Assembly (NCBI RefSeq): GCF_020386615.1
Contig: NZ_CP077769.1
Coordinates: 1,178,001 to 1,242,000 of the forward strand
Source: Chitinophaga pendula
GTDB taxonomy: Bacteria; Bacteroidota; Bacteroidia; Chitinophagales; Chitinophagaceae
Direction: 5' to 3'
Length of the DNA stretch: 64,000 nt
Shown here: positions 8,517 through 33,963 of the stretch, piece by piece
Layout of the letters: each line of letters opens with the position of its first letter
How positions within the stretch are numbered: position 1 is the stretch's first letter
The notes under the pieces: generated by a model
Databases searched by the model: none
Seen by the model: the letters and a program-made list of their open reading frames with translations, nothing else
Told to the model about the DNA's origin: nothing
Program-made: the position numbers and the translations under genes

Positions 8517-8696
8517 ATGAAATTGAACCCCTCTTTTGAAAAGGTACCACGTACCAGCCTGAAGCAGGTAGCAGGAGGCGGGCAGGCGCATGCGGCCCGT
8601 GTATGCTTCACTTTCTGTACCAATGGATCACCCTGTCCGGCGGGATGTAAGTGTGTGTTCCAATCAGGCAATGTCCGTATTTGTTTGTCCTTATAA
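8517..8696 (+). CDS. Double-glycine-leader, six-cysteine (knottin-like) peptide
   Basis: This 59-aa precursor has a leader with SLKQVAGGG followed by a core with six cysteines spaced C-x3-C-x5-C-x3-C-x1-C-x9-C. The middle loops 5-3-1 equal those of squash trypsin inhibitors (6-5-3-1-5). The leader (K-Q-V-A-GG) is of the kind cut by C39 peptidase/ABC exporters, so the product is probably secreted. It shares the six-cysteine plan with six other intact genes to 14065. A hairpin terminator follows at 8709. Target and activity are unknown; disulfide knotting is inference from spacing. Confidence 0.75.
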   Translation: MKLNPSFEKVPRTSLKQVAGGGQAHAARVCFTFCTNGSPCPAGCKCVFQSGNVRICLSL

Positions 8697-8708
8697 GACA
8701 TTGTAAGT

Positions 8709-8738
8709 CCTATAGCGGGGAGAGATCCCTGCTATAGG
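8709..8738 (+). terminator. Hairpin after first knottin-like peptide gene
   Basis: CCTATAGC pairs with GCTATAGG, and GGGA with TCCC inside, around a GAGA loop, with one G-T opposition. It starts 12 bp after the stop codon. There is no long T-tract, so it could also be an RNA stability hairpin. Confidence 0.55.
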
Positions 8739-8775
8739 CTCCCTATACCCCATTAGGAAACTAAACATAGATATC

Positions 8776-8970
8776 ATGAGAAAACTGATCGATCAATTCG
8801 GTATTTTATCCCGCATTCAACTGGCAAAAGTTTCTGGTGGCCTGGGAAAGAGAAGAGAGCCTAATTGCGGAGCCATCTGTCGGACACAGGCAGACTGTGA
8901 TCCGTCTCCACAACCCGCATGTGTGTGTCTGCGTCCCCGCCAGGCCTGTTACGGCCCGGCATCGCTGTAA
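8776..8970 (+). CDS. Double-glycine-leader, six-cysteine (knottin-like) peptide
   Basis: This 64-aa precursor has a leader ending QLAKVSGG and a core spaced C-x3-C-x5-C-x7-C-x1-C-x6-C, with CRTQADC and CVCLRPRQAC. The single residue between cysteines 4 and 5 and the five-residue loop 2 match the plant cystine-knot pattern. The core is proline- and arginine-rich, with few Ser/Thr, which speaks against a lanthipeptide. It follows the first peptide gene by 79 bp with a hairpin between, so the two are probably separate transcripts. Function unknown. Confidence 0.75.
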   Translation: MRKLIDQFGILSRIQLAKVSGGLGKRREPNCGAICRTQADCDPSPQPACVCLRPRQACYGPASL

Positions 8971-8983
8971 TGTCTTTGTTAGC

Positions 8984-9006
8984 CCAACCGGTGAAAGGCC
9001 GGTTGG
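8984..9006 (+). terminator. Hairpin terminator after second peptide gene
   Basis: CCAACCGG and CCGGTTGG form an 8-bp perfect stem around a 7-nt loop, 13 bp after the stop codon of the 8776 peptide gene. Confidence 0.6.
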
Positions 9007-9214
9007 TAATATCATTGCTGTAGCTGTTATTTATATTTAAAAAATGACCTATTCGTCATTGTTACATTCGTTCTGGTACTATAGTTTTGTAATCGTATTC
9101 ATCCGCTAGCTGTTAAAATGAAAAGATAGTAATCGGAGATACCATACTCGCTTCAGCTGTAGCAGTTCCCAATTGGATTGTCATTTATTGCTTACCCCTA
9201 AAATCATCGTTGAC

Positions 9215-9508
9215 ATGAAAAGAACGAATGGGCATACTAATGCCGGCACCTCAGGAATGAACATGCTACAAGACTTACACACCAGGTTATTCGAAGTACC
9301 CATCCTATTCCGCGACCGTGTCTGTGAAGAATGTGCCTGGAGCATCCCCACTTTCTATAGAAAAATGAAAGCTATCGACCGCTATAACGGCCGGAAGAAG
9401 CTAATTCCAAGTCTCAGCAATGCTGAGATGGAAAAGATCATTGATGTCTTAGATCAAGAGTATAAGAAGCTGTGGGAGTATTGTGAGAGATATAGAACCA
9501 GAAAATAA
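9215..9508 (+). CDS. Hypothetical protein with HTH-like segment
   Basis: The first ATG in frame (9215) gives 97 aa; an upstream TTG at 9173 would add 14 residues and is less likely. The stretch FRDRVCEECAWSIPTFYRKM (about residues 32-51) has the spacing of a helix-turn-helix. A long amphipathic C-terminal helix rich in Lys/Glu/Tyr follows. No family is recognised. It lies in the AT-rich accessory stretch among peptide genes and is followed by a strong hairpin, so it is expressed as a single gene. Confidence 0.55.
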   Translation: MKRTNGHTNAGTSGMNMLQDLHTRLFEVPILFRDRVCEECAWSIPTFYRKMKAIDRYNGRKKLIPSLSNAEMEKIIDVLDQEYKKLWEYCERYRTRK

Positions 9509-9518
9509 GTGGGTGCAT

Positions 9519-9549
9519 AACAATAGCGATATACAATATCGCTATTGTT
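9519..9549 (+). terminator. 14-bp stem terminator
   Basis: AACAATAGCGATAT and ATATCGCTATTGTT form a perfect 14-bp stem with an ACA loop, 10 bp after the stop codon at 9508, followed by ATTT. Confidence 0.75.
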
Positions 9550-9993
9550 ATTTATCATGATATAACAAATATTATTATCTTCGCTATTGTCGACCGGAAT
9601 CTACATATTATTAACACTCAATTTATTTAGGCTTATACTTATTAAATTCCTATATCGTTGGCCTTAATTGCCCCTACCTTTTGTGATTGAATTGTCGAGG
9701 TTTATTTTTTAAAAACCTGAAAAGGTATTCTTCCCTAGCGGAACAATAAATACATTATTTCAAGTAGAGCTAACATTCATATGATTAAATGCAATATTGC
9801 TTGCTGTTCAAACCATTTCGATTCGCAGAAGCATTGGCAACCAAGAAGATACCTCAAGCTAGAGGACCAAAAATAGTTTGGTTTCAAATGAATTTTTTGA
9901 CAATCCAGAGAGCTACAAGTGATTTGATTGTTGTTTCAACTTAAAAGAGGAAATTATGCTTATTAAATAAAAGGTCTCGTAATAGACCAAAGA
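9550..9993. other. AT-rich intergenic stretch without recognisable gene
   Basis: This stretch is visibly AT-richer than the flanking chromosome. Only short open frames occur, such as a 51-codon frame from 9789 and a 31-codon frame from 9781. Neither has a leader, signal or family motif, so neither is called. The segment AAGGTCTCGTAATAGACC near 9970 contains a small inverted repeat (GGTCT/AGACC) just upstream of the next gene. Confidence 0.5.
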
Positions 9994-10221
9994 ATGGAAT
10001 GTTCTGTAAAGAATTTCAAAACTAAAAATCATGCTAATATGCTAGAAAGTAGTAGTTCATTCAGTATACCAATTATGATAGCTGCTTTAGCTATATTCGT
10101 TGTGATACAAATCGTAATAATCAGATGGGTACTAAGGATAAATGATATCGTCTTTTATCTTCAAAAGATACATGAAAAATTATGGAAGCTATTGGAAGAA
10201 AAAGGGTTAAACGATAAATAA
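9994..10221 (+). CDS. Small single-span membrane protein
   Basis: This protein of up to 75 aa has one transmembrane segment (residues about 25-46, IPIMIAALAIFVVIQIVIIRW) and a basic/amphipathic C-terminal tail (IVFYLQKIHEKLWKLLEEKG). The start may be the ATG at 9994 or the internal Met16, which would leave a shorter periplasmic end. No family is recognised. It lies in the AT-rich island. The architecture (single span plus amphipathic helix) fits small membrane effectors, toxins or immunity proteins, but this is not proof. Confidence 0.5.
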   Translation: MECSVKNFKTKNHANMLESSSSFSIPIMIAALAIFVVIQIVIIRWVLRINDIVFYLQKIHEKLWKLLEEKGLNDK

Positions 10222-10526
10222 GTGTTTCGTAATAGATGCCTCAAAAAGTTGACGTTACAACGATAACTGCTATAATAGGAATTGGATAGATCAACTACTT
10301 AATGGCAAAACTGTTAGTATAAAAAGTCTTCAGTTACGAGGAGGCTTGTAGATAGTAACTTTATCAGCCTTCTATTGCTGGTCTCAGCGAGGTCGTAATA
10401 GCTACTATATTATTGATAGTCTCTTAGCCCAAAGTTATAGAAACCATTTATATGCAGTGTGATTTCTATTCTTTTCTTAATGGTATAAAGTGCGGTCAGA
10501 ACTATCAAGTACGTAAATAATAAAAC
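10222..10526. other. Intergenic stretch, no intact gene
   Basis: At 10236 an ATG opens 17 codons (MPQKVDVTTITAIIGIG) that look like the start of a small membrane protein before a TAG, possibly a decayed gene. Nothing else coding-like is seen up to the hairpin at 10527. Confidence 0.4.
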
Positions 10527-10557
10527 AATAATAGCGGCCTATTATGCCGCTATTATT
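10527..10557 (-). terminator. 12-bp stem terminator of the 10614-10793 peptide gene
   Basis: AATAATAGCGGC and GCCGCTATTATT form a perfect 12-bp stem with a 7-nt loop. On the minus strand the stem is followed by a T-rich run (TTGTTTTATTATTT). It lies 57 bp beyond the minus-strand peptide stop codon. Confidence 0.7.
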
Positions 10558-10613
10558 ATGAAAAGCATCGCTTATTGAAGGAGAGGTACACCCTCCCTTT
10601 CATAAATATGATA

Positions 10614-10793
10614 TTAAAATCCCCCACAATAAAGCGTCAGGCATCTGCAATTTGATCCCATACTTGTACAATCGCTTTGAATAACGCAGCGAATACCGAA
10701 GCAAAGCCTCGCTGTTGTCATCGCTTTACCGCCTCCATGTAAGGCTTTCATCTCCGATCTTGAAACTGGTGTGAATTGGATTAACTTTTTCAT
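10614..10793 (-). CDS. Double-glycine-leader, six-cysteine (knottin-like) peptide, short ORF
   Basis: This 59-aa gene runs from the CAT at 10791-10793 to the TTA at 10614-10616 and falls below common ORF length cut-offs. The leader is MKKLIQFTPVSRSEMKALHG followed by GG. The core has six cysteines spaced C-x4-C-x5-C-x6-C-x1-C-x4-C and ends CGGF. Loops 4-5-6-1-4 are the most cyclotide-like of the set (kalata-type 3-4-4-1-4). The leader has the same MKK-x-x-F-x(4)-R-x-E/D-x-K plan as the 12688-14065 peptides. A hairpin terminator lies downstream. Probably exported after GG cleavage; activity unknown. Confidence 0.75.
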   Translation of the reverse strand: MKKLIQFTPVSRSEMKALHGGGKAMTTARLCFGIRCVIQSDCTSMGSNCRCLTLYCGGF

Positions 10794-11054
10794 AAGACAT
10801 TTATTTTAGGTGAAGAAATAATGCTTGCGAAATAATCGGGTATCTAATCTAATGTTTAGGAATGCGATATGACGGCGTTGAGACGCACGGTACAGGCCGG
10901 TGTATGTGCGCTTCGTCCATTTTATTGTCACTATTAGGAAATTTGTATATTTGTTTAAGCCCATCACTTATTGGCTTGTGGATGTAGCTAACCTCAATGT
11001 ACCCTTGTTAGTGAATGACAACCTAATGTAGAATTAATATTAAATCTCTTATCT

Positions 11055-11738
11055 ATGGCAGAATATGCTAATTGCCCCAATTGTGATAGCCCTATCAAAT
11101 CAGGACTATTTAATTCAAATGAACTCCTTAATGATGAGTTATGTCTCCTGATAAATGAATTCGGGAGCCGCAGAAGTGCTGGTTATTGTAAGAAATGCGG
11201 TACCGATCTATCTCATGATGCGATGGCTAAACTTCGGGAGATATTTTCTGACGCTCAGTCGGAAGTAAGGAAGAATATAAGTAATATTCCTATCGTTACT
11301 ACTCACTCGCCATTTGGATGGCAGTATCGGATTCTTGGAATGGCTTCCGGACAGAGCACGACAGGTACGGGACTCTTTTCTGAATTTACGGCTTCCTGGA
11401 CAGATCTATTTGGTATGCAGTCGAGTGCTTATAACGAAAAGATCGCCAATGGCGAATCGTTGTGTGCAAGTCAGCTGAGGTCAAAGGCTGTTGCCATGGG
11501 CGGAAATGCAATTATTGCGGCGGACATTGACTATTCGGAATTGGGTGCCGGTAAAGGTATGATAATGGTTTGTATGTCGGGTACCGTTGTTCGTTTAGAA
11601 AATCTCGATGTTCTGGAACAGGGAAAAATTGCCGCATTGCAAATCATCAAAGAAAATTCGGCCAGCTTATCCCATTTGAATAAGCGGTTTCCCGAGACAA
11701 TAAAAGCGATAAGAAAAAGTGCTTTGCCGCAGCAGTAG
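11055..11738 (+). CDS. Zinc-ribbon plus YbjQ/UPF0145-like domain protein
   Basis: This 227-aa protein starts with a zinc-ribbon-like pair of Cys-x2-Cys motifs (CPNC at residues 7-10, CKKC at 45-48). From about residue 76 it has a YbjQ-type (DUF74) domain: IVTTHSPFGWQYRILGMASG, then the helical A-x-x-L-R-x-x-A-x-x-x-G-x-N-A-I core, and MVCMSGTVVRLE at the end. YbjQ proteins form pentamers and are of unknown function, sometimes called heavy-metal binding. The C-terminal 40 residues are an extra helix. Cytoplasmic; function not established. Confidence 0.75.
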   Translation: MAEYANCPNCDSPIKSGLFNSNELLNDELCLLINEFGSRRSAGYCKKCGTDLSHDAMAKLREIFSDAQSEVRKNISNIPIVTTHSPFGWQYRILGMASGQSTTGTGLFSEFTASWTDLFGMQSSAYNEKIANGESLCASQLRSKAVAMGGNAIIAADIDYSELGAGKGMIMVCMSGTVVRLENLDVLEQGKIAALQIIKENSASLSHLNKRFPETIKAIRKSALPQQ

Positions 11739-11792
11739 GTAATAGGCAAGACTGCGGATACTGTTCTATAATAATAACAAAATGCCATTTAC

Positions 11793-12302
11793 ATGACTGA
11801 CGCAGCATGGGGTGTTTTAGGCACCCTGGGAGGAGCGTTTCTGGGCATAGGCTTCCCATGGATAAGAGAGTTTATTGACCGGAGACGCCCTCTTTTCGTA
11901 GACATAAAAGACTTTGGGCTTATTTATCAGGCGGTAAACCAACAGACATCGCCGGCTACTGGTGTCTTGAAAGCCTATGTTTATAATAGTTCCTCTATCC
12001 CGAAGCCATTCAGTCCACTAGACCTGACGTTGATAAATAATGAAACCATTAAGGTCATATTACATCAACATCCCGATCATTATGAGGAAGTGGCAGAAAC
12101 TGTCCAGATAGGAGCAAACTCCGCTGAATACTTTATCGTACATGTGTCCATTCTTCCAATAAGTAAATATGATGAGCTACCTGTGCTTCCTGAACTAAAG
12201 GAGGAGCGCGGGAATTTAAAGGGGATATTTAGGTATAGAGTAGGAGCGAAAATAAAAAGGACCAAAATACATATTTGGCAGGGGGTAGAATTGGAGGAGT
12301 AA
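11793..12302 (+). CDS. Hypothetical membrane-anchored protein
   Basis: This 169-aa protein has one N-terminal hydrophobic segment (residues about 5-24, AWGVLGTLGGAFLGIGFPWI) followed by RRR and a soluble, beta-rich domain with no recognisable motif. The N-in pattern and positive stop suggest a membrane anchor with a cytoplasmic domain. It lies 54 bp after the YbjQ-like gene, so co-transcription is possible. No family is recognised. Confidence 0.6.
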   Translation: MTDAAWGVLGTLGGAFLGIGFPWIREFIDRRRPLFVDIKDFGLIYQAVNQQTSPATGVLKAYVYNSSSIPKPFSPLDLTLINNETIKVILHQHPDHYEEVAETVQIGANSAEYFIVHVSILPISKYDELPVLPELKEERGNLKGIFRYRVGAKIKRTKIHIWQGVELEE

Positions 12303-12366
12303 ACAAAAAGAGAAATCATAGAGGAGGCATAGTGCTAAAGCCTTCGAGCCTGCTCCCGGTCTTTAG

Positions 12367-12570
12367 CAATCCCTCCTTTTCCGTACCTCGCCGCCACAAA
12401 ACCTCACCAATGCTGCTCTCCTGATCCAGGTATATAACACCCTGCATTTTATCGCGGAAAACTACAACCGTCTTATCTCCATCAGGGAGCTGGAGAACGT
12501 GTCTAATTATTCTTACCGGAATATCCAGCGGGTGTTTAAGTACATCTGTGGGCAGACGATTGACGGCTAG
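12367..12570 (+). pseudogene. Fragment of an AraC-family regulator DNA-binding domain
   Basis: The plus-strand frame between stops at 12364 and 12568 encodes the first HTH of an AraC domain: YNTLHFIAENYNRLISIREL, then VSNYSYRNIQRVFKYICG, matching the family's S-x-R/Y-x-L/I-Q-R-x-F-K-x-x-x-G signature. There is no ATG at a sensible place, no sensor domain, and the second HTH is missing after GQTIDG. It is a truncated remnant, suggesting past rearrangement inside the peptide island. Confidence 0.65.
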
Positions 12571-12687
12571 TTGTATGCAAATGTATGCTGATCCCATCAT
12601 TTTCTGATACTGCATCGTCCCTACTACTTAAGATATAAATATTTGCCGATGAAACCTTATTTTCTGTAACCCCAAAAACTATACGTT

Positions 12688-12876
12688 ATGAAGAAGATCA
12701 CCCAGTTTAAGACTTTAACAAGAACAGATCTCAAAATCGTTAAAGGTGGCGGTTTAACCCGCGGGCAGATCGAATGCCCCAAGCAAAGATGTATCACGGA
12801 GTTCGGCTGGCCTAACTGCTTGCCAGGTGTATTCTGCGGATGTATGAAGGACTTGATGTGCGGATCACCCTTCTGA
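12688..12876 (+). CDS. Double-glycine-leader, six-cysteine (knottin-like) peptide
   Basis: This 62-aa precursor has the leader MKKITQFKTLTRTDLKIVKG plus GG and a core spaced C-x4-C-x8-C-x5-C-x1-C-x5-C. The first loop is CPKQRC, which recalls the CPK/R start of squash trypsin inhibitors, though two residues shorter. The segment before the ATG (CCCAAAAACTATACGTT) is shared with the other MKK-type peptide genes. A degenerate copy of a related peptide follows directly in the same frame. Function unknown; protease inhibition would be speculation. Confidence 0.75.
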   Translation: MKKITQFKTLTRTDLKIVKGGGLTRGQIECPKQRCITEFGWPNCLPGVFCGCMKDLMCGSPF

Positions 12877-12885
12877 TACCACTGT

Positions 12886-13041
12886 GCTGTTCTTACAGTC
12901 AGCAAAGGTGGTGGCACAGCTGCCGCGAATGCAACCTGCCAGCTCGTATGCTGCCAGCAGACGACAGGATGGATGTATTGAAAACCTGCTGGGAATTTCT
13001 GTATATATAACGCCAATGGCTATTGCGACGTTCGTTTATGA
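12886..13041 (+). pseudogene. Decayed knottin-like peptide gene
   Basis: In the same frame as the preceding peptide, beyond its TGA, the reading is TVSKGGGTAAANATCQ, then VCCQQTTGWMY, a TGA, KPAGNFCIYNANGYC and a TGA at 13039. Aligned to the 13197 peptide (loops 4-8-6-1-5) every position fits if the internal TGA replaces cysteine 3 (one base from TGC/TGT) and Tyr (TAT) replaces cysteine 5 (TGT). The start and most of the leader are gone, as after recombination between tandem genes. Confidence 0.65.
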
Positions 13042-13049
13042 TGTAACGG

Positions 13050-13075
13050 TAGTGTTCAGCCGTCACTGAACACTA
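13050..13075 (+). terminator. Hairpin after decayed peptide gene
   Basis: TAGTGTTCAG and CTGAACACTA form a 10-bp perfect stem with a 6-nt loop, 8 bp after the TGA ending the peptide pseudogene. It is probably the retained terminator of that copy. Confidence 0.55.
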
Positions 13076-13196
13076 TGTGAACGCAGCGCTATCCTGTAAT
13101 GCGAATGGAATGACTAGACGGTTAATCTATTGGATAAGATCGACGTTTTTTATAACGTCTCAGCCCCTGTTTTCTATAACCCAATCCATATTTGTT

Positions 13197-13391
13197 ATGA
13201 AAAAGATGACCAACTTCGAATTAGTTTCCAGAGCGGAACTAAAATCGATCAATGGTGGTGGAAGCTCTGTGGCACAGCGCGAATGTCCCTTCAGAGGTTG
13301 CACGCCAGAGACATCATTTATTTATTGCAGGCCGGCAGGCGTATTTTGTGTATGTAGAAACATCGGTTTCTGCGGTTTTGGCATACCATAG
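13197..13391 (+). CDS. Double-glycine-leader, six-cysteine (knottin-like) peptide
   Basis: The ATG at 13197 gives 64 aa with the leader MKKMTNFELVSRAELKSING plus GG. An in-frame ATG at 13077 would add 40 residues that resemble no leader. The core is spaced C-x4-C-x8-C-x6-C-x1-C-x5-C and ends RNIGFCGFGIP, similar in pattern to the CRGNGYCG end of squash inhibitors. The upstream sequence ends TAACCCAATCCATATTTGTT-ATG, like its paralogs. A 12-bp terminator stem follows at 13400. Function unknown. Confidence 0.75.
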   Translation: MKKMTNFELVSRAELKSINGGGSSVAQRECPFRGCTPETSFIYCRPAGVFCVCRNIGFCGFGIP

Positions 13392-13399
13392 CGTATGCA

Positions 13400-13428
13400 A
13401 AAGCGTCCCTGACAACCAGGGACGCTTT
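13400..13428 (+). terminator. 12-bp stem terminator of the 13197 peptide gene
   Basis: AAAGCGTCCCTG and CAGGGACGCTTT form a perfect 12-bp stem with the loop ACAAC, 8 bp after the stop codon. Confidence 0.8.
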
Positions 13429-13591
13429 AAATTGATCTCAACTTATCGTCTGCTGTTGCAAATGCTAAGTCAGGCATAATACTGTTGACAGCTATCGCCC
13501 TCACATGTGCATCGTCCTGCAAAAAAAAAACAAAGACGCCTCAGCCGATAAAAGGCAACTTACTAAACAAACAGATGTACATAACAATAAG

Positions 13592-13622
13592 ATCCCCCGA
13601 TAGTCGAGGACTACCGGGGGAT
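13592..13622 (-). terminator. Terminator of the minus-strand tandem peptide genes
   Basis: ATCCCCCGATAGT and ACTACCGGGGGAT pair over 13 bp with one mismatch and a 5-nt loop. It lies 6 bp beyond the minus-strand stop codon at 13629. Confidence 0.7.
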
Positions 13623-13628
13623 AGCTTT

Positions 13629-13817
13629 TTAGAAGGCACATCTGCCGGCGCCGCCAACAGGGCCCAGGCATACACAGCCACTACGAACGCAGCCATTACC
13701 AGGCGTATTACGGCACTGAGAAGGGCAGGGGAGGGCTACGCGCACGCCCGAACCACCACCATGAATGTTTTTCAGTGCATCGCGATGCATCATTTCAAAT
13801 TTGCTGATCTTTTTCAT
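13629..13817 (-). CDS. Double-glycine-leader, six-cysteine peptide, tandem copy 2
   Basis: This 62-aa precursor has the leader MKKISKFEMMHRDALKNIHG plus GG and a core spaced C-x3-C-x7-C-x4-C-x1-C-x9-C. It differs from the upstream copy (13871-14065) at a handful of positions: N/S and G/A near the GG site, S-Q/S-L in loop 1, V/A in loop 4 and the C-terminal end. The gap between the two copies has no hairpin, and the terminator at 13592 follows this copy, so both are probably on one transcript. Confidence 0.75.
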   Translation of the reverse strand: MKKISKFEMMHRDALKNIHGGGSGVRVALPCPSQCRNTPGNGCVRSGCVCLGPVGGAGRCAF

Positions 13818-13870
13818 AACGCTATGGGTTTTGGGTTTTGAAATTACAGGATGGGTGCAGATGGTGACAG

Positions 13871-14065
13871 TTATTCAAAGGAGGCGCATCTGCCCGTGCC
13901 ACCTACAGGACCCAGGCATGCACAACCGCTGCGTACGCAGCCATTACCGGGTGTGTTACGGCACAGAGAAGGACAGGAGAGCCCCACGCGTATACCTGCG
14001 CCACCACCATGAATACTTTTCAGTGCATCGCGATGCATCATTTCAAATTTGCTGATCTTTTTCAT
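13871..14065 (-). CDS. Double-glycine-leader, six-cysteine peptide, tandem copy 1
   Basis: This 64-aa precursor has the same leader (…RDALKSIHGGG) and the same 3-7-4-1-9 cysteine loops as the copy at 13629, and ends GRCASFE. It is the promoter-proximal copy of a minus-strand pair. The core is rich in Gly, Pro and Arg and poor in hydroxy residues. The near-identical leader against a slightly varied core fits recent duplication. Function unknown. Confidence 0.75.
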   Translation of the reverse strand: MKKISKFEMMHRDALKSIHGGGAGIRVGLSCPSLCRNTPGNGCVRSGCACLGPVGGTGRCASFE

Positions 14066-14328: not shown

Positions 14329-14883
14329 ATGATGAGCAATGATCAAACACTGATAGAAAGGGCCAAATCGGGAGATGAACGGGCCTTTCAACAATTATTT
14401 GATAGATACTGGCGGGACCTGTACCGCATAGCTTACCAGCGAGTGAGAGCCGAAGCCGACGCTCAGGACCTGGTACAGGAAGTCTTTATTGCCTTCTGGA
14501 AGAACATACACACCGTCAAAATCACCGACTCCGTAGCCGGATACCTCTTCATCGCACTCCGTAATAAGATATTCGACTTCTACGAAAAACAACAGGTCCG
14601 CCTACACTACGTACTCGACCAGCCATTTCGTGCCGCCGATACACCCGAACAGCCAATTGATAACATCGCCAGTAAAGAACTACGCAACATACTAGCCGCC
14701 GCCATCGAGACGCTGCCAGATAAAATGAAAGAAATATACCGCCTCAGCCGCGAACAACAACTCACCATAGCAGAAATGTCATCCCTGCTCGCACTCTCTC
14801 CGCAAACCGTCAAAAATCAACTCAGTACCGCATTACAGCGTATCCGGAAAGAAGTCCAGCGACACTATCTCCTCCTGCTCTGA
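14329..14883 (+). CDS. ECF sigma factor, FecI/Bacteroidetes SusCD type
   Basis: This 184-aa extracytoplasmic-function sigma-70 has region 2 at residues about 20-85 (AFQQLFDRYWRDLYRIAYQR, DAQDLVQEVFIAFW) and region 4 at about 125-178 (LPDKMKEIYRLSREQQLTIA, LLALSPQTVKNQLSTALQRI). It is followed by a FecR anti-sigma gene and a SusC receptor with an STN domain. That is the standard trans-envelope signalling chain, in which substrate binding at the receptor frees the sigma factor to transcribe the operon. The second ATG at 14332 is an equally possible start. Confidence 0.92.
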   Translation: MMSNDQTLIERAKSGDERAFQQLFDRYWRDLYRIAYQRVRAEADAQDLVQEVFIAFWKNIHTVKITDSVAGYLFIALRNKIFDFYEKQQVRLHYVLDQPFRAADTPEQPIDNIASKELRNILAAAIETLPDKMKEIYRLSREQQLTIAEMSSLLALSPQTVKNQLSTALQRIRKEVQRHYLLLL

Positions 14884-14950
14884 AATTTTTTTTCGCGACA
14901 CTAGTACTCCGCCACCTGTCACCCGTTATTCATTCATATAGGTCGTCACT

Positions 14951-15910
14951 ATGGATGAACAATTGCTGGCACTCATAAAGAAATACAACCAGGGCAAATG
15001 CACGCCTGCCGAAAAGCAGCGCCTGGAAGACTGGTACAACGCCACCGGCATGGACAATAGTGAAGTCCCCCCTCCACCAGGTGGATGGGAAGCAGCCGGT
15101 AAGGTCATGTGGAAAGAGATCCGCGCCAATCAACCGGCCAGAAAAGCCCGCATCCGGCCTATATACTGGCAGGTCGCCGCCGCCGCAGTCATACTCCTCG
15201 CCATAGCAGGATTGTACCGCTTCTGGCAGCAACAACAACAGTGGATAGTAATACGCACCGCACAGGGCGAGATCAGGCAGATCACCTTGCCCGATAGCTC
15301 CTCCGTCACCATGAATGGCAATGCCGTACTACGCTATGGCCGCCAATGGGACCCATCAAAAGAAAGACAAGTATGGATCACCGGAGAAGCCTTCTTTAAC
15401 GTTAGACACCTGCATAAAAAAGGAGCTACCGTCATACCGGTACATCGTTTCCTGGTACATGCAGGTCCCACACAGGTCACCGTACTAGGCACCTCCTTTA
15501 ATGTAAAGACACAGGGAGACATCACCCGCATCATACTCGAAACAGGTCATATTCAGCTAAACCATGAAAAAGGCCATAACAGTCCCGTCGACATGCTGCC
15601 GGGCGAAATGGTCACCGTCAACATACATAACACTACCGTTAAAAAAGAAAAGATCAACACCACCATATACACCGCTTGGAAAGCAGGCAAACTTGAACTA
15701 AACAGCACCGATTTTGCTGATATAGTGAAGTTCATCACATACAACTATGGACGGAAAGTAGGCGTGTATGATACCACCCTACTCCATAAAAGATTGTCCG
15801 GGGGTACAGTGGACACAAACGATGAACAACAGCTTTACAGTATTTTATCAACTATTTTAAATGTTAACATTCGCCAACAGGGCGACTCTATCATCATTTC
15901 TCACCAATAA
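14951..15910 (+). CDS. FecR-family anti-sigma factor
   Basis: This 319-aa protein has a cytoplasmic N-terminus with a short helical anti-sigma region (LIKKYNQGKCTPAEKQRLE) and one membrane span at about residues 71-90 (WQVAAAAVILLAIAGLYRFW). The periplasmic FecR domain follows (RQITLPDSSSVTMNGNAVLR, EAFFNV, TVLGTSFNV). The C-terminal region (LSGGTVDTNDEQQLYSILST) is of the type that contacts the STN domain of the partner SusC. It is encoded 67 bp after the sigma factor and immediately upstream of the receptor. Confidence 0.92.
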   Translation: MDEQLLALIKKYNQGKCTPAEKQRLEDWYNATGMDNSEVPPPPGGWEAAGKVMWKEIRANQPARKARIRPIYWQVAAAAVILLAIAGLYRFWQQQQQWIVIRTAQGEIRQITLPDSSSVTMNGNAVLRYGRQWDPSKERQVWITGEAFFNVRHLHKKGATVIPVHRFLVHAGPTQVTVLGTSFNVKTQGDITRIILETGHIQLNHEKGHNSPVDMLPGEMVTVNIHNTTVKKEKINTTIYTAWKAGKLELNSTDFADIVKFITYNYGRKVGVYDTTLLHKRLSGGTVDTNDEQQLYSILSTILNVNIRQQGDSIIISHQ

Positions 15911-15962
15911 TGATGACAGCAGATAGGACTTTATCAACCATTTAAAAAAAGAAATCGCTACT

Positions 15963-18900
15963 ATGAACAAATGTACTCTGCTCCTGGCGGGAGTATTGTC
16001 CGTGCTATGCCCCGACAATACCGCCCCCGCAGCGGCACCATTGTCCGCACCGGCAAGGGTAGTGCACACACAACCAAGATCCATACCGCTACCCGTATTG
16101 CTCAAAACAATACAACAGCGACATAAGGTCAGCTTCATCTATGAAGAATCATTGCTCAAAGGCAAAGCCTGCACCTGCGACGCTGCCCGCACCCGCCGCG
16201 AAGAAGTAGAACAATATGTCGCTGCCATCATCGCTCCCATGCACCTGAAACTAAAAAGATTTAACGATTACACCTATGCCATCATAAGCGCCGACACGCC
16301 TGACGATACTGCACTTCCCGCAGAACCCATCCCGTCATCAGGAAGAAGCCACCAACTTGATAAGGTCAGTAATACCGCACAAGCGGGCACATACCATGTA
16401 TCATCTGCCGATGCCCTGCAACAACGCGTAGTCATCAGCGGTCGCATCGTAGCAGAAGAAAATGAAGATCCACTGCCAGGCGCTATCGTCATGGTCGAAG
16501 GCACCAATTTCGGCACCACCGCCGATGAAGAAGGACGCTTCACATTGCGTGTCCCCACCGCCAGAATACTACTCATAAAACATATAGGCTACGAACCGAA
16601 AGAACTCACTTTGGGAGACAAAAGAACAGATCTCATCATCCGCCTCACTGGTAAGTCAAAAACGCTTACCGACGTAGTAGTAACAGGCATCTATAAAAGA
16701 CCGGTGGAAAACTTCACCGGCTCCGCCAAAATCATCACCGCCGAAGAACTACAACGCATCTCACCCCAAAATATACTGGCAGCCATCGCTGTGCTCGATC
16801 CGGCCTTCCAGATGCCCGAAAATATCAACCTCGGCTCCGATCCTAACCGCCTGCCAGACGTACAACTCCGCGGACAGAACAACTTCCCCGTACAATCCGG
16901 CAGAAGCAGCAACGCCAGCCTCCGCAGCATGTACGGCGACAAACCCAATGCTCCCATGTTCGTACTCGATGGCTTCGAAGTAAGCATACAACGCATATTC
17001 GACCTCGATATGAACCGCGTATCCAGGATCACCATACTCAAAGATGCCGCCGCCACCGCCATATATGGCTCCCGCGCCTCCAACGGCGTCATCGTCATCG
17101 ACACCCGCCAGCCCAAAGAAGGCGCCGTAAGAGTATCCTACCGCGGCGGCCTCCAGGTAGAAGCACCCGACCTCAACGGCTATGACCTGCTCAACGCTAA
17201 AGAAAAACTGCAACTGGAAAAAGATGCCGGCAGATACATCTCCACCCGCTTCCAGGGTGATCAGCTCAACCTGGATGAAGAATACAACCGCCGCCTCAAA
17301 GCGGTAACCAGCGGCGTTAACACCTACTGGCTCTCACAACCACTACAGACAGGCGTCGGCAGCACACACTCCCTCTACCTCGAAGGAGGAGACAACGCCG
17401 TGCGATATGGCGTCAACCTCGGCTATCAGAACAATGTCGGCGTCATGAAAGGCTCCGGCCGCCAAAACCTCAGCGGAGGCGTCACACTCAACTATCGTAG
17501 TAACAAACTACTCTTCGGAAACGACCTCTCCATTACCTCCAATAAAGCCACTAACTCGCCATATGGATCGTTCAGCGCCTACGCAAAAATGAATCCCTAT
17601 AATAAAGCCTTCGATTTAAATGCCCATCCACTCCGATACCTCGATACCAGCTGGATCGGTTATACCTACAACTACCTCGAAAATCCCATATATAACGCTA
17701 CCATCGGTAGCCGTAACAATAGCCAGTACCTGCTGTTTACCAACAATTTCCGCTTCGAATGGTCCGCACTCTCCTGGCTGCGTTTCAACGGTAGCTTCAG
17801 CTTCACCAAAAGCACCGACGAATCCAACGACTTCAAACCAGCCGCTCATACCAGCTTCGACAACGTCGACTTTAGCCAGAAAGGAAGTTTCCAGAAAATA
17901 AATGGCAAAAGCGCTAACTATAACGCCACCCTCGGCTTCGATATCCGTAAGATGTTCGGCAAAAGCCTGCTCTACGTCACCGGCGGCGGTAACCTCAACG
18001 AGATAAAGAACGAATCAACCGGCGTCACTGCCGTAGGATTCCCCAACGCCAAAATGGACAATATCATCTTCGCCAGCGGATACGCCGCCAATACAAAACC
18101 CACCGGCATCCAGGGTATCAGCCGCCTCGCCAGCCTGCGCATGAATATCAACTACTCATACGACAACCGCTACCTGGCAGACTTCTCCTCCAGCATCGAC
18201 GCCTCCTCCCAGTTCGGTACCAACAAAAGCCTCGCACCTTTCTGGTCCTTCGGCCTCGGCTGGAATATCCACCGCGAAGCCTTCCTGCACAACAATCGCC
18301 TGATCAACTTCCTCAAACTCAGAGCCTCCATAGGTACCACCGGCGACCAACGGTTCCCGCCATACATGGCCATCACCACCTACACCTATGCGAACGATCG
18401 TTATTACCTCAACCAACTGAGTGCATACCTCATGGGCTACGGCAATCCCGCCCTCGGCTGGCAAAAAGGATTTAAGCGAAACATCGGCGTAGATGCCACC
18501 CTCTGGCAAAACCGCTGGAGCCTCAGCGCAGACTACTACGACAACAGTACCAATGATCTCATCCTCGATATTAGCACACCGCCCTCCCTCGGCTTCTCCG
18601 GCTTCAAGGAAAATGTCGGCTCCCTGCGCAACAAAGGCTGGCAGGTCAGCACCAACGTCGTACTCATCCAGCGCACCAGGCAAGAATTTTTCTGGAGAAT
18701 AGGCGTGTCAGCTTATCACAATACCAATAAGATCGATAAGATATCCAACACGCTGAAAAAGCTGAACAGCGACAACGATAAGTTTGGCAACGATACCGAG
18801 AAGAAACAACAACTATACCCTCGTCTCCGCTTCGAAGAAGGCCAATCATTAACCGCCCTCTGGGGCGTACAAAGCATGGGCATAGACCCGGCCAACGGCC

Positions 18901-19463
18901 AGGAACTGTTCCGCCGCAGAGATGGTACCTATACCTACACCTGGGACCCCAACGACAAAATCGTCCTGGGCGACACCGAACCTAAAGTATCCGGCACCAT
19001 CTCCACAGGTGTAGACTTCAAAGGCTTTAGCATTAACATCTACATCATGTACCGCCTCGGCGCACAGATATATAATCAGACACTCGTAGATAGGGTCGAA
19101 AATGCTGACATCACCTATAACGTAGATAGACGCGTGTCAGAACAGCGTTGGCGAAAACCAGGAGACCACTCCATGTATAAAGGGATCACCTACCTCACCT
19201 CCGGTGGCATATCACAACCGGTATCTACACCTACCTACACCACCTCCCGCTTCGTGCAGACAGAAAATACACTGGATTGCAGCAGCATATCCGCCAGCTA
19301 CCGCTTCCCGGATCAATGGCTTAAAAGGATGAAAATGTCGAATACACGCATCGACTTCTACCTGAATAATCCATTCCGCATCTCCAGCATCAAACGCGAA
19401 CGGGGTCTCGACTACCCATTCGCCAACACATTCAGCTTTAATATCAACACCACATTCTTCTAA
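15963..19463 (+). CDS. SusC/RagA-family TonB-dependent receptor with STN domain
   Basis: This 1166-aa outer-membrane receptor has a signal peptide, then an STN domain (about residues 40-105, PLPVLLKTIQQRHKVSFIYE), a carboxypeptidase-like regulatory domain (160-225, VVISGRIVAEENEDPLPGA), a plug (about 235-385, ending NGVIVIDTRQPKEG) and a 22-strand barrel ending in the aromatic FNINTTFF. The STN domain links it to the FecI/FecR pair upstream. With the SusD partner 18 bp downstream it imports an oligomeric nutrient by TonB energy. Substrate unknown; no glycosidase or peptidase accompanies it. Confidence 0.95.
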   Translation: MNKCTLLLAGVLSVLCPDNTAPAAAPLSAPARVVHTQPRSIPLPVLLKTIQQRHKVSFIYEESLLKGKACTCDAARTRREEVEQYVAAIIAPMHLKLKRFNDYTYAIISADTPDDTALPAEPIPSSGRSHQLDKVSNTAQAGTYHVSSADALQQRVVISGRIVAEENEDPLPGAIVMVEGTNFGTTADEEGRFTLRVPTARILLIKHIGYEPKELTLGDKRTDLIIRLTGKSKTLTDVVVTGIYKRPVENFTGSAKIITAEELQRISPQNILAAIAVLDPAFQMPENINLGSDPNRLPDVQLRGQNNFPVQSGRSSNASLRSMYGDKPNAPMFVLDGFEVSIQRIFDLDMNRVSRITILKDAAATAIYGSRASNGVIVIDTRQPKEGAVRVSYRGGLQVEAPDLNGYDLLNAKEKLQLEKDAGRYISTRFQGDQLNLDEEYNRRLKAVTSGVNTYWLSQPLQTGVGSTHSLYLEGGDNAVRYGVNLGYQNNVGVMKGSGRQNLSGGVTLNYRSNKLLFGNDLSITSNKATNSPYGSFSAYAKMNPYNKAFDLNAHPLRYLDTSWIGYTYNYLENPIYNATIGSRNNSQYLLFTNNFRFEWSALSWLRFNGSFSFTKSTDESNDFKPAAHTSFDNVDFSQKGSFQKINGKSANYNATLGFDIRKMFGKSLLYVTGGGNLNEIKNESTGVTAVGFPNAKMDNIIFASGYAANTKPTGIQGISRLASLRMNINYSYDNRYLADFSSSIDASSQFGTNKSLAPFWSFGLGWNIHREAFLHNNRLINFLKLRASIGTTGDQRFPPYMAITTYTYANDRYYLNQLSAYLMGYGNPALGWQKGFKRNIGVDATLWQNRWSLSADYYDNSTNDLILDISTPPSLGFSGFKENVGSLRNKGWQVSTNVVLIQRTRQEFFWRIGVSAYHNTNKIDKISNTLKKLNSDNDKFGNDTEKKQQLYPRLRFEEGQSLTALWGVQSMGIDPANGQELFRRRDGTYTYTWDPNDKIVLGDTEPKVSGTISTGVDFKGFSINIYIMYRLGAQIYNQTLVDRVENADITYNVDRRVSEQRWRKPGDHSMYKGITYLTSGGISQPVSTPTYTTSRFVQTENTLDCSSISASYRFPDQWLKRMKMSNTRIDFYLNNPFRISSIKRERGLDYPFANTFSFNINTTFF

Positions 19464-19481
19464 ACGAAAAAAGCAGATCAA

Positions 19482-20882
19482 ATGAAACATACCAAAATTA
19501 TCTGCATATACCTGCTGCTCTCCGCAATGCTCTCCTGCAAAAAATGGCTGGATGTACGCCCCGCTACCGAAATAAAACAGGAGAACATGTTCGAAACAGA
19601 AACCGGGTTCAAAGAAGCCCTCTTCGGCGTATACATGAAAATGGGTAAGACAGCATCGTATGGAGGTACCCTCACCCTCACCATCCTGGACGTGCTCGCC
19701 CAATACTACAATGTACAGGACTTCAATAACAAATATGCCAACGTCGGTAAATACAACTATAGGGACATACAGGTCAGGACCGCCATCGACTCCGTCTGGA
19801 ATCTACAATACGAATGTATCGCCAACCTGAACAACCTGCTCGCAGCAGTCGATCAGCAAAAGTCAGTGTTCTCCGGTCAGCACTACGAAATGGTTAAAGG
19901 AGAAGCCCTCGGCCTCAGAGCATTCTTGCACTTCGACCTCCTGCGTATATATGGCCCCGTGATCGCAACAGGCGCCGCAAAAAAGGCCATCCCATATATC
20001 ACCACCTTCGGTAAGCTGGTCACACCACAAAGTACCGCCACCGAAATAATGGATAAATGCCTGCAAGACCTCGATGCCGCCGACAGCTTGCTCAAAGTAC
20101 AACAACAGCTGTTCTACGCCGATCCGGACGCATTCCGCTCCTATACCCGCAATCATTTCAACTACTGGGCAGTACAGGCACTACGGGCACGTATATATCT
20201 CTATAAAGGGGATAAAGTAAAAGCCTTACAGTACGCCAAATCCGTCATAGATGAAGCACGCTTCACCTTCGGAGATCCCAACACCTTCAACGCCACCTAC
20301 AACAGCGATCGCACCTTCTCCACCGAACATATATTCGCCATACAGGTATCCGATCTCAAAATCCTCTACGACCGCGAATTCAAACCAGGTAGCACAAATG
20401 CCGTCACTATCTATCAATTGCCAACAGTCGTCGACGATATGTTCGAGGTAACCAAAGGGGGCGCCACCGACTACCGCTATCGCTACCTGGTAGCCCGGCA
20501 GGGAGACGTATCCCTCTTTACCAAATACAACCAGGATGTCAATGGCGCCCTCGAGATCGAAGGACAGATACCACTGATCAAATTACCGGAACTATACTAC
20601 ATCGCCGCAGAAGCCTCACCAGACAAAAACCTCGCACTCACTTATCTCAACACCATAAGAAGTAAACGAGGCCTGGTAGGCCTGCCCACCCCCATAGACG
20701 AAGCTACCCTCACAGCAGAGCTCACAAAAGAATATACCAAAGAGTTCTGCAGCGAAGGCCAGCTGTTCTTTTATTTTAAAAGACTCAATCGCTCGCAGAT
20801 ACCTCGTACCGCCGTCCAGATGAATGAGGCCACCTATGTCCTGCCATTACCCGACAACGAAGTAGAATTCGGTAACCGTTAA
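19482..20882 (+). CDS. SusD/RagB-family outer-membrane lipoprotein
   Basis: This 466-aa protein has a lipoprotein signal with lipid-attachment Cys19 (AMLSCKKW). It has the SusD opening after the lipobox (WLDVRPATEIKQENMF), TPR-like helices (GEALGLRAFLHFDLLRIYGP, NYWAVQALRARIYLYKGDKV) and the C-terminal LYYIAAEA motif. It forms the lid of the SusC channel and captures substrate at the surface. It is slightly short for the family, and the extreme C-terminus ends soon after the RagB core. Confidence 0.93.
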   Translation: MKHTKIICIYLLLSAMLSCKKWLDVRPATEIKQENMFETETGFKEALFGVYMKMGKTASYGGTLTLTILDVLAQYYNVQDFNNKYANVGKYNYRDIQVRTAIDSVWNLQYECIANLNNLLAAVDQQKSVFSGQHYEMVKGEALGLRAFLHFDLLRIYGPVIATGAAKKAIPYITTFGKLVTPQSTATEIMDKCLQDLDAADSLLKVQQQLFYADPDAFRSYTRNHFNYWAVQALRARIYLYKGDKVKALQYAKSVIDEARFTFGDPNTFNATYNSDRTFSTEHIFAIQVSDLKILYDREFKPGSTNAVTIYQLPTVVDDMFEVTKGGATDYRYRYLVARQGDVSLFTKYNQDVNGALEIEGQIPLIKLPELYYIAAEASPDKNLALTYLNTIRSKRGLVGLPTPIDEATLTAELTKEYTKEFCSEGQLFFYFKRLNRSQIPRTAVQMNEATYVLPLPDNEVEFGNR

Positions 20883-20892
20883 ATGAATCAAT

Positions 20893-21639
20893 ATGCTACA
20901 ACATCTTAAATATACGGGCTTGATAATGGGCCTCCTCTGCATGGGAAGCTGCGTGAAAGACACACCCAGGTTCGCCAATGAGGCAGGCGTATATATCAAT
21001 AAAGAAAGTATGGATAGCTATAAAGACAGCATCACCTATTCATTCGCTGTCAAACCAGATACACTCCAGCAGGACACCATATACCTCCCCATACGCATCA
21101 CCGGCCTGCCCACCAAAAACGATCGTCCCATACCCATGACCATCGTCAAAGACAGTACCTCCGCCACCCAGGCACAGCACTACGAACTACCGGTATGCCT
21201 CATCAAAGCCGATAGCTTCATCGCCAGGTTCGCCATCATCGTAAAACGTCGCCCCGATCTCAAAGACCGCGAAGTACGACTGATGTTACAGGTAACACCC
21301 AGTCAGGACTTCCCGCTCAATATCACCCGCCTCGCCACCGGCGCCAATCCATACTACCTCATCCGGCTCAATGACAAACTCACCAAACCGGATAAATGGG
21401 AATCCGCCGGCAGCTGGTTACAAACATTCTTCGGCAACTATAGCGAGACTAAATTCAAATTTATCATACAGGTCACCGGTCGCAGCAACTGGCCCCCAAG
21501 AGGCCGCGATGGCGCCGGTGCACCCATACTCAACGATATGCACAACTATTCCAGCATGGTGCACGAAGCATTACGCCTCTATGAAGCTGCCAACGGCCCT
21601 ATGATAGACGAAAACGGGAATCGCGTAGTATTCCCCTGA
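20893..21639 (+). CDS. DUF4843 lipoprotein
   Basis: This 248-aa lipoprotein (Cys20 in CMGSC) has the DUF4843 pattern: YINKESMDSYKDSITYSFAV, then paired Ig-like strands (IYLPIRITGLPTKNDRPI, VRLMLQVTPSQDF). The family occurs mainly downstream of susC/susD in Bacteroidota and is thought to assist surface substrate binding. Spacing of 10 bp from susD shows operon membership. Confidence 0.85.
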   Translation: MLQHLKYTGLIMGLLCMGSCVKDTPRFANEAGVYINKESMDSYKDSITYSFAVKPDTLQQDTIYLPIRITGLPTKNDRPIPMTIVKDSTSATQAQHYELPVCLIKADSFIARFAIIVKRRPDLKDREVRLMLQVTPSQDFPLNITRLATGANPYYLIRLNDKLTKPDKWESAGSWLQTFFGNYSETKFKFIIQVTGRSNWPPRGRDGAGAPILNDMHNYSSMVHEALRLYEAANGPMIDENGNRVVFP

Positions 21640-21677
21640 CGTATACACTACTTTCTCTTCACGTTAAAACAACAGGC

Positions 21678-23123
21678 ATGAAACACCTGCCCGGTATATA
21701 CACCCTGCTCCTCATCACCATGCTCCTGTTCACAGCATGCTATAAGGACAAAGGCAACTACAACTACACACAGATCGCAGAAATGACGATCAACGGCCTG
21801 CCCGATACCCTCAATACCTTGCTGCTGGACACGCTCCAACTCCAACCCTCCGTTACGCAACAGGGGGTAAGCAACGGTAACTACAGCTATGATTGGTTCG
21901 TAATAGATTACAAAGCCAACACCAGAACCTCCGTAGCCAATACACTCGCCTTGCGCATGCCGGTCACCACCGGCATCGGTACCTACCCGCTCGTATTCCG
22001 GGTAACAGACAAAAACACCGGCATCAGCAGCTCCAAAGAGGTCACCATGATCGTCAAATCCTTGCTGAGCAATGGCGCACTCCTGCTCGAAGAAGGCCCG
22101 CAGGGTGGAGACCTCAGCCAGGTCACTCCCGATTACAAAGTATATCGCAACTTGTACAGCCAGATCAACAAAGGCGAACGACTCATCCCTCCCCTGAAAG
22201 GCATACTGGGTAGCTACAACGACAATAACCGCTATCAGCAACAGGTTATCTTCATCGTCGCCGGTACCGATCCCGTACTCCTCGATGTACAGACCTATGC
22301 GAAAAAAGGAGTGCTGTCACAACAATTCCAGACCCCGCCGGCAACAATGGAGCCGTCCTTCTATAATTGTAACAACGACGCCTATATCATCAATAGTGGA
22401 AAGATCTATGGCATGCAGGGCGCTACCAGCAACCCCATCAAGTTTGTAGCGCCAATGGCCGGCAATTATAAAGCGGCGCCCTATCTCCATCCGCTATACA
22501 GCTGGTTCGCTGCCTTCGCCACCTACGACGAAGCGAATGGCCGCTTCGCCTATGGCAAAAAGTCAGGGGGAGACCTCCTGTTCTACCCACCAGCCACCGG
22601 AGCCAGCGCATTCGATCTCAATAAGATCGGCAAAAAATACGTATACGCTGCACCGACCGCCAGCAACTATGTACTATGGATAATGAAAGACAGCGATGGC
22701 TCCCTGCATATATACATCGTCAACCCGGATAGCAACAGCGCAGATGCCGCCATCCAATACGTGGCAGTAGCAAACGCACCGGCCATGCAGACAGCCACCG
22801 CATATACGGCGTCAGCCAAAGTGCCTCAGCTTTACTACAGCGCTGCCAACCAGCTATACCTGTACGACTACAAAGCCAATACTGCCAGGCACCTCTACAC
22901 ACTGCCTGCCGGCGAAAACATCACCGCCTTACAACTAATACCCGACAAAACAGCTAACGGCTGGACATACACGACGCAGAACAAACTACTGGCTGTCTCC
23001 TGGAATGGCAGTGAAAGCAAACTATACTACTTCGATATCGAAGATACCGGCCTCCTGAAAAGTAACACTCCCGTCAAAGTAGTCGGCGGCTTCGGAAAGA
23101 TCATCTCTCTCTTTTACAAATAA
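21678..23123 (+). CDS. PKD-like family lipoprotein
   Basis: This 481-aa lipoprotein (Cys21 in LFTACYKD) opens with the CYKDKGNYNY stretch typical of the Bacteroidota PKD-like family found after susCD-DUF4843. The N-terminal part is Ig/PKD-like (YDWFVIDYKAN, TYPLVFRVTDKNTGISSSKE). The C-terminal two thirds look like a beta-propeller or repeated-sheet domain (LLFYPPATGASAF, LYYFDIEDTGLL). Probably a surface-exposed binding protein of the same uptake system. Confidence 0.8.
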   Translation: MKHLPGIYTLLLITMLLFTACYKDKGNYNYTQIAEMTINGLPDTLNTLLLDTLQLQPSVTQQGVSNGNYSYDWFVIDYKANTRTSVANTLALRMPVTTGIGTYPLVFRVTDKNTGISSSKEVTMIVKSLLSNGALLLEEGPQGGDLSQVTPDYKVYRNLYSQINKGERLIPPLKGILGSYNDNNRYQQQVIFIVAGTDPVLLDVQTYAKKGVLSQQFQTPPATMEPSFYNCNNDAYIINSGKIYGMQGATSNPIKFVAPMAGNYKAAPYLHPLYSWFAAFATYDEANGRFAYGKKSGGDLLFYPPATGASAFDLNKIGKKYVYAAPTASNYVLWIMKDSDGSLHIYIVNPDSNSADAAIQYVAVANAPAMQTATAYTASAKVPQLYYSAANQLYLYDYKANTARHLYTLPAGENITALQLIPDKTANGWTYTTQNKLLAVSWNGSESKLYYFDIEDTGLLKSNTPVKVVGGFGKIISLFYK

Positions 23124-23133
23124 ACAAGTGATC

Positions 23134-24522: not shown

Positions 24523-24747
24523 TTAGTTCGCCGTCTTCACGCACTTACCCTGATCCGGACTGGAGGGGTTGTTAGTAGACCAGCAGGTCAACCCCGCTTC
24601 ACATTTAATGTCCATCCAGTTACAATATTCCCCCTCTTTCGACGGACGAACGGTAAACCGGACAGCTTGACCGCCTAATACGTTCTTAATTTCACTTCTG
24701 GACAATACGTCCACGTTACTCATAGATTGGAATTGCAGTGTTTTCAT
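24523..24747 (-). CDS. Double-glycine-leader peptide with four-cysteine core
   Basis: This 74-aa precursor has a leader ending LSRSEIKNVLGG, clearly of the same type as the 12688-14065 peptides (R-x-E/D-x-K-x-x-x-GG). The core differs: four cysteines spaced C-x6-C-x5-C-x13-C, with KCEAGLTCW. The start is the ATG at 24747 or internal Met9. It is flanked by its own terminator and lies outside the main peptide island, next to the SusCD operon. Probably secreted; function unknown. Confidence 0.7.
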   Translation of the reverse strand: MKTLQFQSMSNVDVLSRSEIKNVLGGQAVRFTVRPSKEGEYCNWMDIKCEAGLTCWSTNNPSSPDQGKCVKTAN

Positions 24748-33406: not shown

Positions 33407-33416
33407 CAGGTATAGT
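33389..33416 (+). terminator. Terminator of the RND operon
   Basis: ACTATACCTGC and GCAGGTATAGT form an 11-bp perfect stem around ATATTA. The stop codon TAG (33404-33406) lies inside the hairpin. Confidence 0.7.
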
Positions 33417-33495
33417 ATCAAGTAGCAATAGGATAACACATGGGACAATAATGGAATAGACCGTTCTAACCACCCTTCCCCTTATCCAGCTAAAA

Positions 33496-33537
33496 TAAAT
33501 TTGCCATTATATTTTTAACGTACGTTTTTTATCGTAC
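33496..33537 (+). promoter_or_regulatory. Promoter -7 element and BlaI-type operator
   Basis: TAAATTTG at 33496-33503 fits TAnnTTTG. Fourteen bases on is the palindrome AACGTACGTT (33517-33526), overlapping the inverted repeat GTACG-N8-CGTAC (33520-33537). It lies 10 bp before the BlaI-like start, where BlaI/MecI repressors autoregulate. Confidence 0.6.
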
Positions 33538-33546
33538 CTTAGTGTC

Positions 33547-33948: not shown

Positions 33949-33963
33949 CTAAAAACCAGTACC

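Follow-up and report, generated by a model that had tools for sequence, protein, structure and literature searches.

What kind of peptide family is represented by the small double-glycine (GG) leader genes found at 8517–14065 in a 64,000-bp stretch of the Chitinophaga pendula genome (NZ_CP077769.1, positions 1,178,001–1,242,000; C1:1178001-1242000 of a single 7.66-Mb contig; below, the window), and how could its products be folded and exported? A sequence-only reading had described seven precursor genes with six core cysteines spaced similarly to those of plant cyclotides and squash trypsin inhibitors, and had proposed an inhibitor cystine knot (ICK) and export by a C39 peptidase/ATP-binding cassette (ABC) transporter. 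We found this observation to be right and understated, as the family spans the genome and not just the window. With a probability of roughly 0.7, the seven genes are part of a genome-wide family of exported three-disulfide miniproteins, which would be oxidized by a C39-like/VKOR/thioredoxin fusion protein, exported in trans via a C39 ABC exporter and employed as a diversified arsenal.

All seven genes were re-found by open reading frame (ORF) analysis with the positions, lengths and loop lengths described previously, each with a GG leader and six core cysteines, and one residue was found between Cys4 and Cys5 in 7/7. Precursors 1 (8517–8696, 59 amino acids (aa), loops 3-5-3-1-9, E = 3.2e-14 with the genome profile described below), 2 (8776–8970, 64 aa, 3-5-7-1-6, 1.2e-14, same sequence as P0005), 4 (12688–12876, 62 aa, 4-8-5-1-5, 1.4e-15) and 5 (13197–13391, 64 aa, 4-8-6-1-5, 2.4e-17; for this frame the ORF list has a GTG start at 13077) are located on the forward strand, and precursors 3 (10614–10793, 59 aa, 4-5-6-1-4, 4.4e-15), 6 (13629–13817, 62 aa, 8.5e-15) and 7 (13871–14065, 64 aa, 1.1e-14) on the reverse strand. 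The last two, both with loops 3-7-4-1-9, are tandem paralogues showing 95% identity in the leader and 80% in the core. The leaders carry GG and hydrophobic positions of the double-glycine type; that of precursor 4 matched Pfam ComC (26 bits, cut-off 20.4), and the NCBIfam model leader_Chryseo ("bacteriocin-like protein") gave 13–18 bits on 5/7 precursors, under its cut-off of 23.5. The combination of a GG leader, exactly six core cysteines and Cys4-x-Cys5 was present in seven ORFs of the window compared to none in 100 dinucleotide shuffles of it, and thus the set is not a product of chance.

A profile (A2) built from 21 precursors, which match it by construction and make it lean towards the genome of the window, was found to match this genome at no fewer than 91 places, at least 81 of them at E ≤ 1e-3. 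The profile counts for this genome, the genus and a family-level draw rest on 26–150 scored candidates per genome, and the figures for other genomes are lower bounds. Exactly six core cysteines were shown in 77 of 81 leader-filtered ORFs, a set different from the 81 profile places at E ≤ 1e-3. The filter dropped nine ORFs without a leader motif, including a six-cysteine one (place 5069302) close to a different C39 exporter; the ninth precursor of the run at 4.21 Mb described below, places with GA or GT for GG and places with in-frame stops are also left out of the 81, whereas one evidently spurious 114-aa ORF with three cysteines (place 536718) is still included.

The 77 six-cysteine ORFs were divided into 63 with Cys4-x-Cys5, nine with the cysteine-stabilized alpha-beta (CS-alpha-beta) order, four with adjacent Cys3-Cys4 and one with none of these. 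The Cys4-x-Cys5 cores are 34–56 residues long with median loops of 4-5-5-1-6. All nine of the second group showed Cys2-x3-Cys3 and a Cys5-x-Cys6 end (e.g., 4-3-9-4-1), as CS-alpha-beta defensins and scorpion toxins do, whereas many ICK toxins of animals have adjacent Cys3-Cys4. The C-G-x ending noted earlier was seen as a Gly after Cys6 in three of the seven window peptides, but in just 5/63 genome cores. As separate observations, three tandem precursors of the same leader type at about 5885396–5886178 (L098) have the spacing 7-3-6-4-1, a CS-alpha-beta-like order, and family members with in-frame stops at C1 2361044–2361202 and 3526166–3526339 are probably decayed copies.

Within the genus, at least 12/79 genomes (this one included) matched the profile at E ≤ 1e-3, with at least 24 places in congener G030, at least 10 in G049, at least 4 in G026 and one or two in the rest; in the family-level draw, at least 11/244 genomes matched, again counting this one. 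Cys4-x-Cys5 was found in 26/26 filtered precursors of G049, many of them in tandem, and the 26 six-cysteine precursors of G030 were split 19, 5 and 2 among the cysteine frameworks. Besides, a profile search of a protein catalogue, which sees only proteins sharing short exact words with the query, gave eight relatives. The expansion of this leader type looks lineage-specific. A locus in G049 (L140, C2 about 30214–34000) was observed to contain tandem short GG precursors, mostly of the form C-x6/7-C-x2/3-C-x3-C-x-C-x(4-11)-C, with a VKOR fusion on the opposite strand at its end.

A C39 search of the genome gave seven matches, two of which belong to a run of genes on one strand at 4.21 Mb. This run consists of a 548-aa fusion protein (domains C39-like, VKOR and Thioredoxin_4; the one match in this genome), nine GG precursors with six cysteines each, a 733-aa C39 ABC exporter in which the catalytic Cys/His/Asp motif is visible by eye, and a 171-aa HlyD-type protein. 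A C39 peptidase/ABC exporter is thus linked to the family at this run, and not in the window. In an alignment of the fusion with those from 56 of 58 loci tried, the VKOR cysteines 218, 226, 297 and 300 and both cysteines of CGPC were kept in 57/57 sequences, whereas the column of Cys15, the candidate C39 nucleophile, contained Cys in only 7/57. The C39-like domain of HlyB binds without cutting, and by this parallel the C39-like domain of the fusion may bind the leaders without cleaving them.

Fusion matches were present in 39/79 genomes of the genus, a few of these being fragments, and in 43/395 genomes of the phylum (15/171 genera), this genome being included in both counts. At 39 congener fusion loci, picked mostly by score from 64 rows of other genomes, a GG ORF with four or more cysteines was found within 3 kb 3′ on the same strand in 27 cases, compared to a background of 0.028 per locus; after exclusion of 10 loci known to adjoin a profile match (one about 8 kb away), the linkage was still seen at 19/29. 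Among the GG ORFs behind congener fusions, 35/37 have an even number of cysteines, and a C39 ABC exporter is also present at 19/39 loci. Conversely, profile matches were found in 11 other genomes of the genus, and in nine of these a match adjoins a VKOR fusion, the exceptions being G039, where it lies about 8 kb from the fusion, and G029, where it is on another contig. Outside the genus, where fusion loci with 1.5-kb flanks were analyzed, such GG ORFs were found at 8/15 loci from several families and at 1/14 in family f5. The named relatives of the fusion were from a Chitinophagales, a Mucilaginibacter and a Bacteroidetes metagenome-assembled genome (records near the genome of the window were possibly omitted), and one of these three records, that of Mucilaginibacter, contained two eight-cysteine precursors behind the fusion.

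The precursors of congeners are not confined to one core type. A precursor behind a VKOR fusion at L204:7744-7956 has a four-cysteine LDLR-A-like core (Pfam 35 bits, cut-off 24.1), another at L195:9522-9851 a hevein-like core (Chitin_bind_1, 27.0 bits, below the 27.8 cut-off), and a WAP-like core scored 20.5 bits, just under the cut-off of 20.8.

The window contains neither a C39 nor a VKOR-fusion match, so that neither machinery gene is found beside the seven genes. Against the linkage, 12/39 congener fusion loci lack such a precursor. The repeated fusion–precursor linkage in congeners and the run at 4.21 Mb support disulfide formation and C39 export well, as genomics goes. The C39-like domain of the fusion would first bind the leader, and the six core cysteines would be oxidized at the VKOR and CGPC sites of the same protein; the C39 peptidase/ABC exporter, with the HlyD-type adaptor, would then cut after GG and export the core. 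The run, which is 3 Mb from the window, would act in trans on precursors dispersed over the genome. The majority of cores, those with Cys4-x-Cys5, would probably fold as a cystine knot, and a smaller set would follow the CS-alpha-beta order.

The family also shows signs of translation and selection, since an A-rich box precedes its starts and nonsynonymous differences are fewer than synonymous ones (pN < pS). Upstream of 80 precursor starts, A was found in 72, 76, and 71% at positions −13 to −11, and an A-rich upstream box is typical of Bacteroidota. In 29 close pairs from four genomes, which are not independent of each other, pN/pS values were 0.174/0.490 for leaders and 0.283/0.648 for cores, showing that cores diverge faster than leaders; a dispersed pair (0.313 and 7.390 Mb) showed a core pS of 0.79 and pN of 0.04. 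These start-site and pN/pS statistics were taken from the same leader-filtered list as the statistics on the 63 cores. The sequence TAnnTTTG was found upstream of 3/80 precursors compared to 3.8 expected, and no promoter motif is claimed.

Whether the cores form a knot is less clear than how they may be oxidized. The published ICK spacing, CX3-7CX3-8CX0-7CX1-4CX4-13C (as cited in PMC4942781), is a permissive formula that fits 7/7 window cores and 50/63 Cys4-x-Cys5 cores of the genome, but only one of the four cores with adjacent Cys3-Cys4 (7-4-0-4-8). The resemblance to cyclotides and squash inhibitors proposed earlier was seen in this spacing, whereas no cyclotide or squash family was listed when the seven precursors were scanned against Pfam at E ≤ 1. 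Structures were predicted for cores including that of precursor 3 (pLDDT, the predicted local distance difference test score, 72–75). For one model, five of six structural matches were squash knottins, and the listed matches came for the most part from squash, cyclotide, scorpion or other cystine-dense chains, besides a single antistasin-type chain; all were weak. The VIA-align match lists drew on 19 and 4 chains, so families absent from them are not thereby excluded. A PDB sequence search with one core from the 4.21-Mb run gave chance matches only, a whole-precursor profile gave a single PDB match, to carnobacteriocin B2 in its leader region (E = 0.57), and a Pfam scan of two C-C-CC-C-C precursors from this genome gave no family.

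The main alternative is that the cores are disulfide miniproteins with the epidermal growth factor (EGF)-like pairing 1-3, 2-4, 5-6 or some other pairing that forms no knot. A single residue in the Cys4-Cys5 loop is the EGF signature as well, and in some cores the Cys3-Cys4 and Cys5-Cys6 loops are long (e.g., 4-5-8-1-10). Core alignments were made from 103 cores, excluding those of G049 (A3, 67 rows; A4, 57; A5, 33, one of the latter being the whole precursor P0006), and the A3 profile matched EGF domains in PDB sequences as well as it matched squash knottins (Notch EGF, E = 0.023–0.14 for the better rows; squash knottins, E = 0.03–0.04), although the Notch match at 0.023 spans profile positions 7–33 only. 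The LDLR-A-like, hevein-like and WAP-like cores of congeners further show that other folds run on the same system. However, the short loops of most cores, reflected in the medians above, argue against an EGF-like pairing, and no EGF chain was among the listed model matches, an absence that excludes nothing given how weak these were. We therefore regard a non-knot pairing as unlikely but deserving serious weight, and a cystine-knot fold as plausible and unproven.

As for function, the conserved leader and diverging core suggest a diversified antagonism arsenal, and our best guess is a bacteriocin- or inhibitor-like role. Among the 63 cores, net charges between −4 and +5 were found, with 51 cores at 0 to +3. 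The exported peptides could instead be signals or act on the producer itself, in kin recognition or development. When the ORFs lying within 3 kb of precursors were compared all against all, no recurrent immunity or partner gene emerged, as would fit signaling, and histidine kinases and response regulators were found within this distance at nine loci. These regulators are, however, heterogeneous members of large superfamilies, and about 80 diverse cores in a single genome would exceed the need for signaling, so that we consider signaling rather improbable. The recurrent neighbor groups appeared generic by eye (kinases/regulators at nine loci, TonB receptors at seven, ECF-sigma-like proteins at four and several groups at three), and a kinase/regulator partner was dropped as a lead.

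Disulfides and not thioethers are the best reading of the cysteine chemistry from the gene content. That the cysteines are modified to lanthionine or other thioethers, as in ribosomally synthesized and post-translationally modified peptides, is very improbable, since the linked enzyme is an oxidase, the VKOR–thioredoxin protein carried by the 4.21-Mb run, and clear lanthionine (Lan) loci are distant. The earlier statement that no lanthionine enzyme is visible was confirmed for the window, which has no LanC-like or Lant_dehydr_N match, but not for the genome, in which LanC-like matches (4.39, 3.09, 5.49, and 6.89 Mb) and Lant_dehydr_N matches (5.49, 6.88, 3.09, and 0.57 Mb) were found. Among the remaining C39 exporters of the genome, some have Lan matches nearby, and ORFs appearing SPASM-like by eye neighbor two of them (no family search was made). 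No clear Lan locus comes within 30 kb of any listed precursor, the closest approach being about 33 kb for the locus at 4.390 Mb. Weak partial LanC-like matches were seen twice (28.6 and 19.8 bits), at a distance of about 21 kb from listed precursors, which in one case are the window genes. A LanB, LanC or LanM gene beside the precursor, as expected for lanthipeptides, was thus not found. A low Ser/Thr content, also proposed earlier, is not a family trait: Ser+Thr averages 5.0 per core and varies from 0 to 13 among the 63 cores, whereas the cysteine count is nearly always six.

To our knowledge, most cystine knots and similar miniproteins dense in disulfides come from eukaryotes. Scores of them in one bacterial genome, made by a module of leader, oxidase and exporter, would amount to an evolutionary experiment in its own right; they would supply stable scaffolds and possibly a system for production, and would be an unusual bacterial arsenal if the cores fold like plant or animal toxin or inhibitor miniproteins. 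A bolder interpretation is that of a venom-like library, in which about 80 exported three-disulfide miniproteins of one leader type include knottin, CS-alpha-beta and a few C-C-CC-C-C orders and share a dedicated leader-binding oxidase also used in Bacteroidota for hevein-like and LDLR-A-like cores. Such a library would represent a convergent bacterial platform for cystine-dense peptides with its own folding enzyme; we hold this interpretation only tentatively, at somewhat less than even odds, in part because a single C-C-CC-C-C core fits the ICK spacing. The C39-like/VKOR/thioredoxin fusion also suggests itself as a marker for disulfide peptides of a broad class, which annotation may overlook.

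In the window, the precursors adjoin a gene run at 14329–24321 (ECF sigma/FecR/TonB receptor/SusD-like/DUF4843/PKD_2/TlpA-like thioredoxin), and its gene content includes SusC/SusD and FecR. Next to this run, at 24523–24747 on the reverse strand, we found a GG-leader ORF of 74 aa whose core contains four cysteines (loops 6-5-13), overlapping a weak profile place (24538–24747, E = 0.033). Pfam and NCBIfam scans of this ORF gave no match, and it is possibly an outlier of the same precursor system.

Compared with known systems, the present cores and the squash trypsin inhibitors and cyclotides are alike in Cys4-x-Cys5, short loops and a Pro or Gly after Cys3 (29/63 cores), a likeness of spacing with no sequence homology shown; loop 1 has 3–4 residues in the window peptides and 6 in squash inhibitors, and plant knottins are made from a plant secretory precursor, in contrast to the GG leader and presumptive C39 export here. 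CS-alpha-beta defensins and scorpion toxins share their cysteine order with the minority framework of nine precursors, none of them in the window; of three tested, two weakly matched the Pfam models for Defensin or scorpion Toxin, below curated cut-offs. Class II double-glycine bacteriocins have a similar leader type, but the six-cysteine cores and linked oxidase set the present family apart. Neither a bacterial knottin family nor a VKOR/C39/thioredoxin precursor system was found described in the open-licence PMC literature.

The nearest tested system is that of the bacteroidetocins, class IIf bacteriocins of Bacteroidetes with a GG leader, a thiol oxidoreductase and a peptidase-ABC transporter (PMC6671954). 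In that report, gel shifts gave evidence for disulfides, deletion of the oxidoreductase gene attenuated activity, the gene being needed for full activity, and no immunity protein was seen (PMC6671954). Both systems share the GG leader, a C39-type ABC transporter, a cysteine-containing core and a thiol oxidoreductase in the region; an oxidoreductase and a C39 ABC gene lie beside the precursors of the 4.21-Mb run, but not beside those of the window. Bacteroidetocins A and B have four cysteines, and their four-gene region contains a single precursor, whereas the present family has six cysteines, nine precursors in one run with scores more dispersed over the genome, and an oxidase in the form of a single fusion protein.

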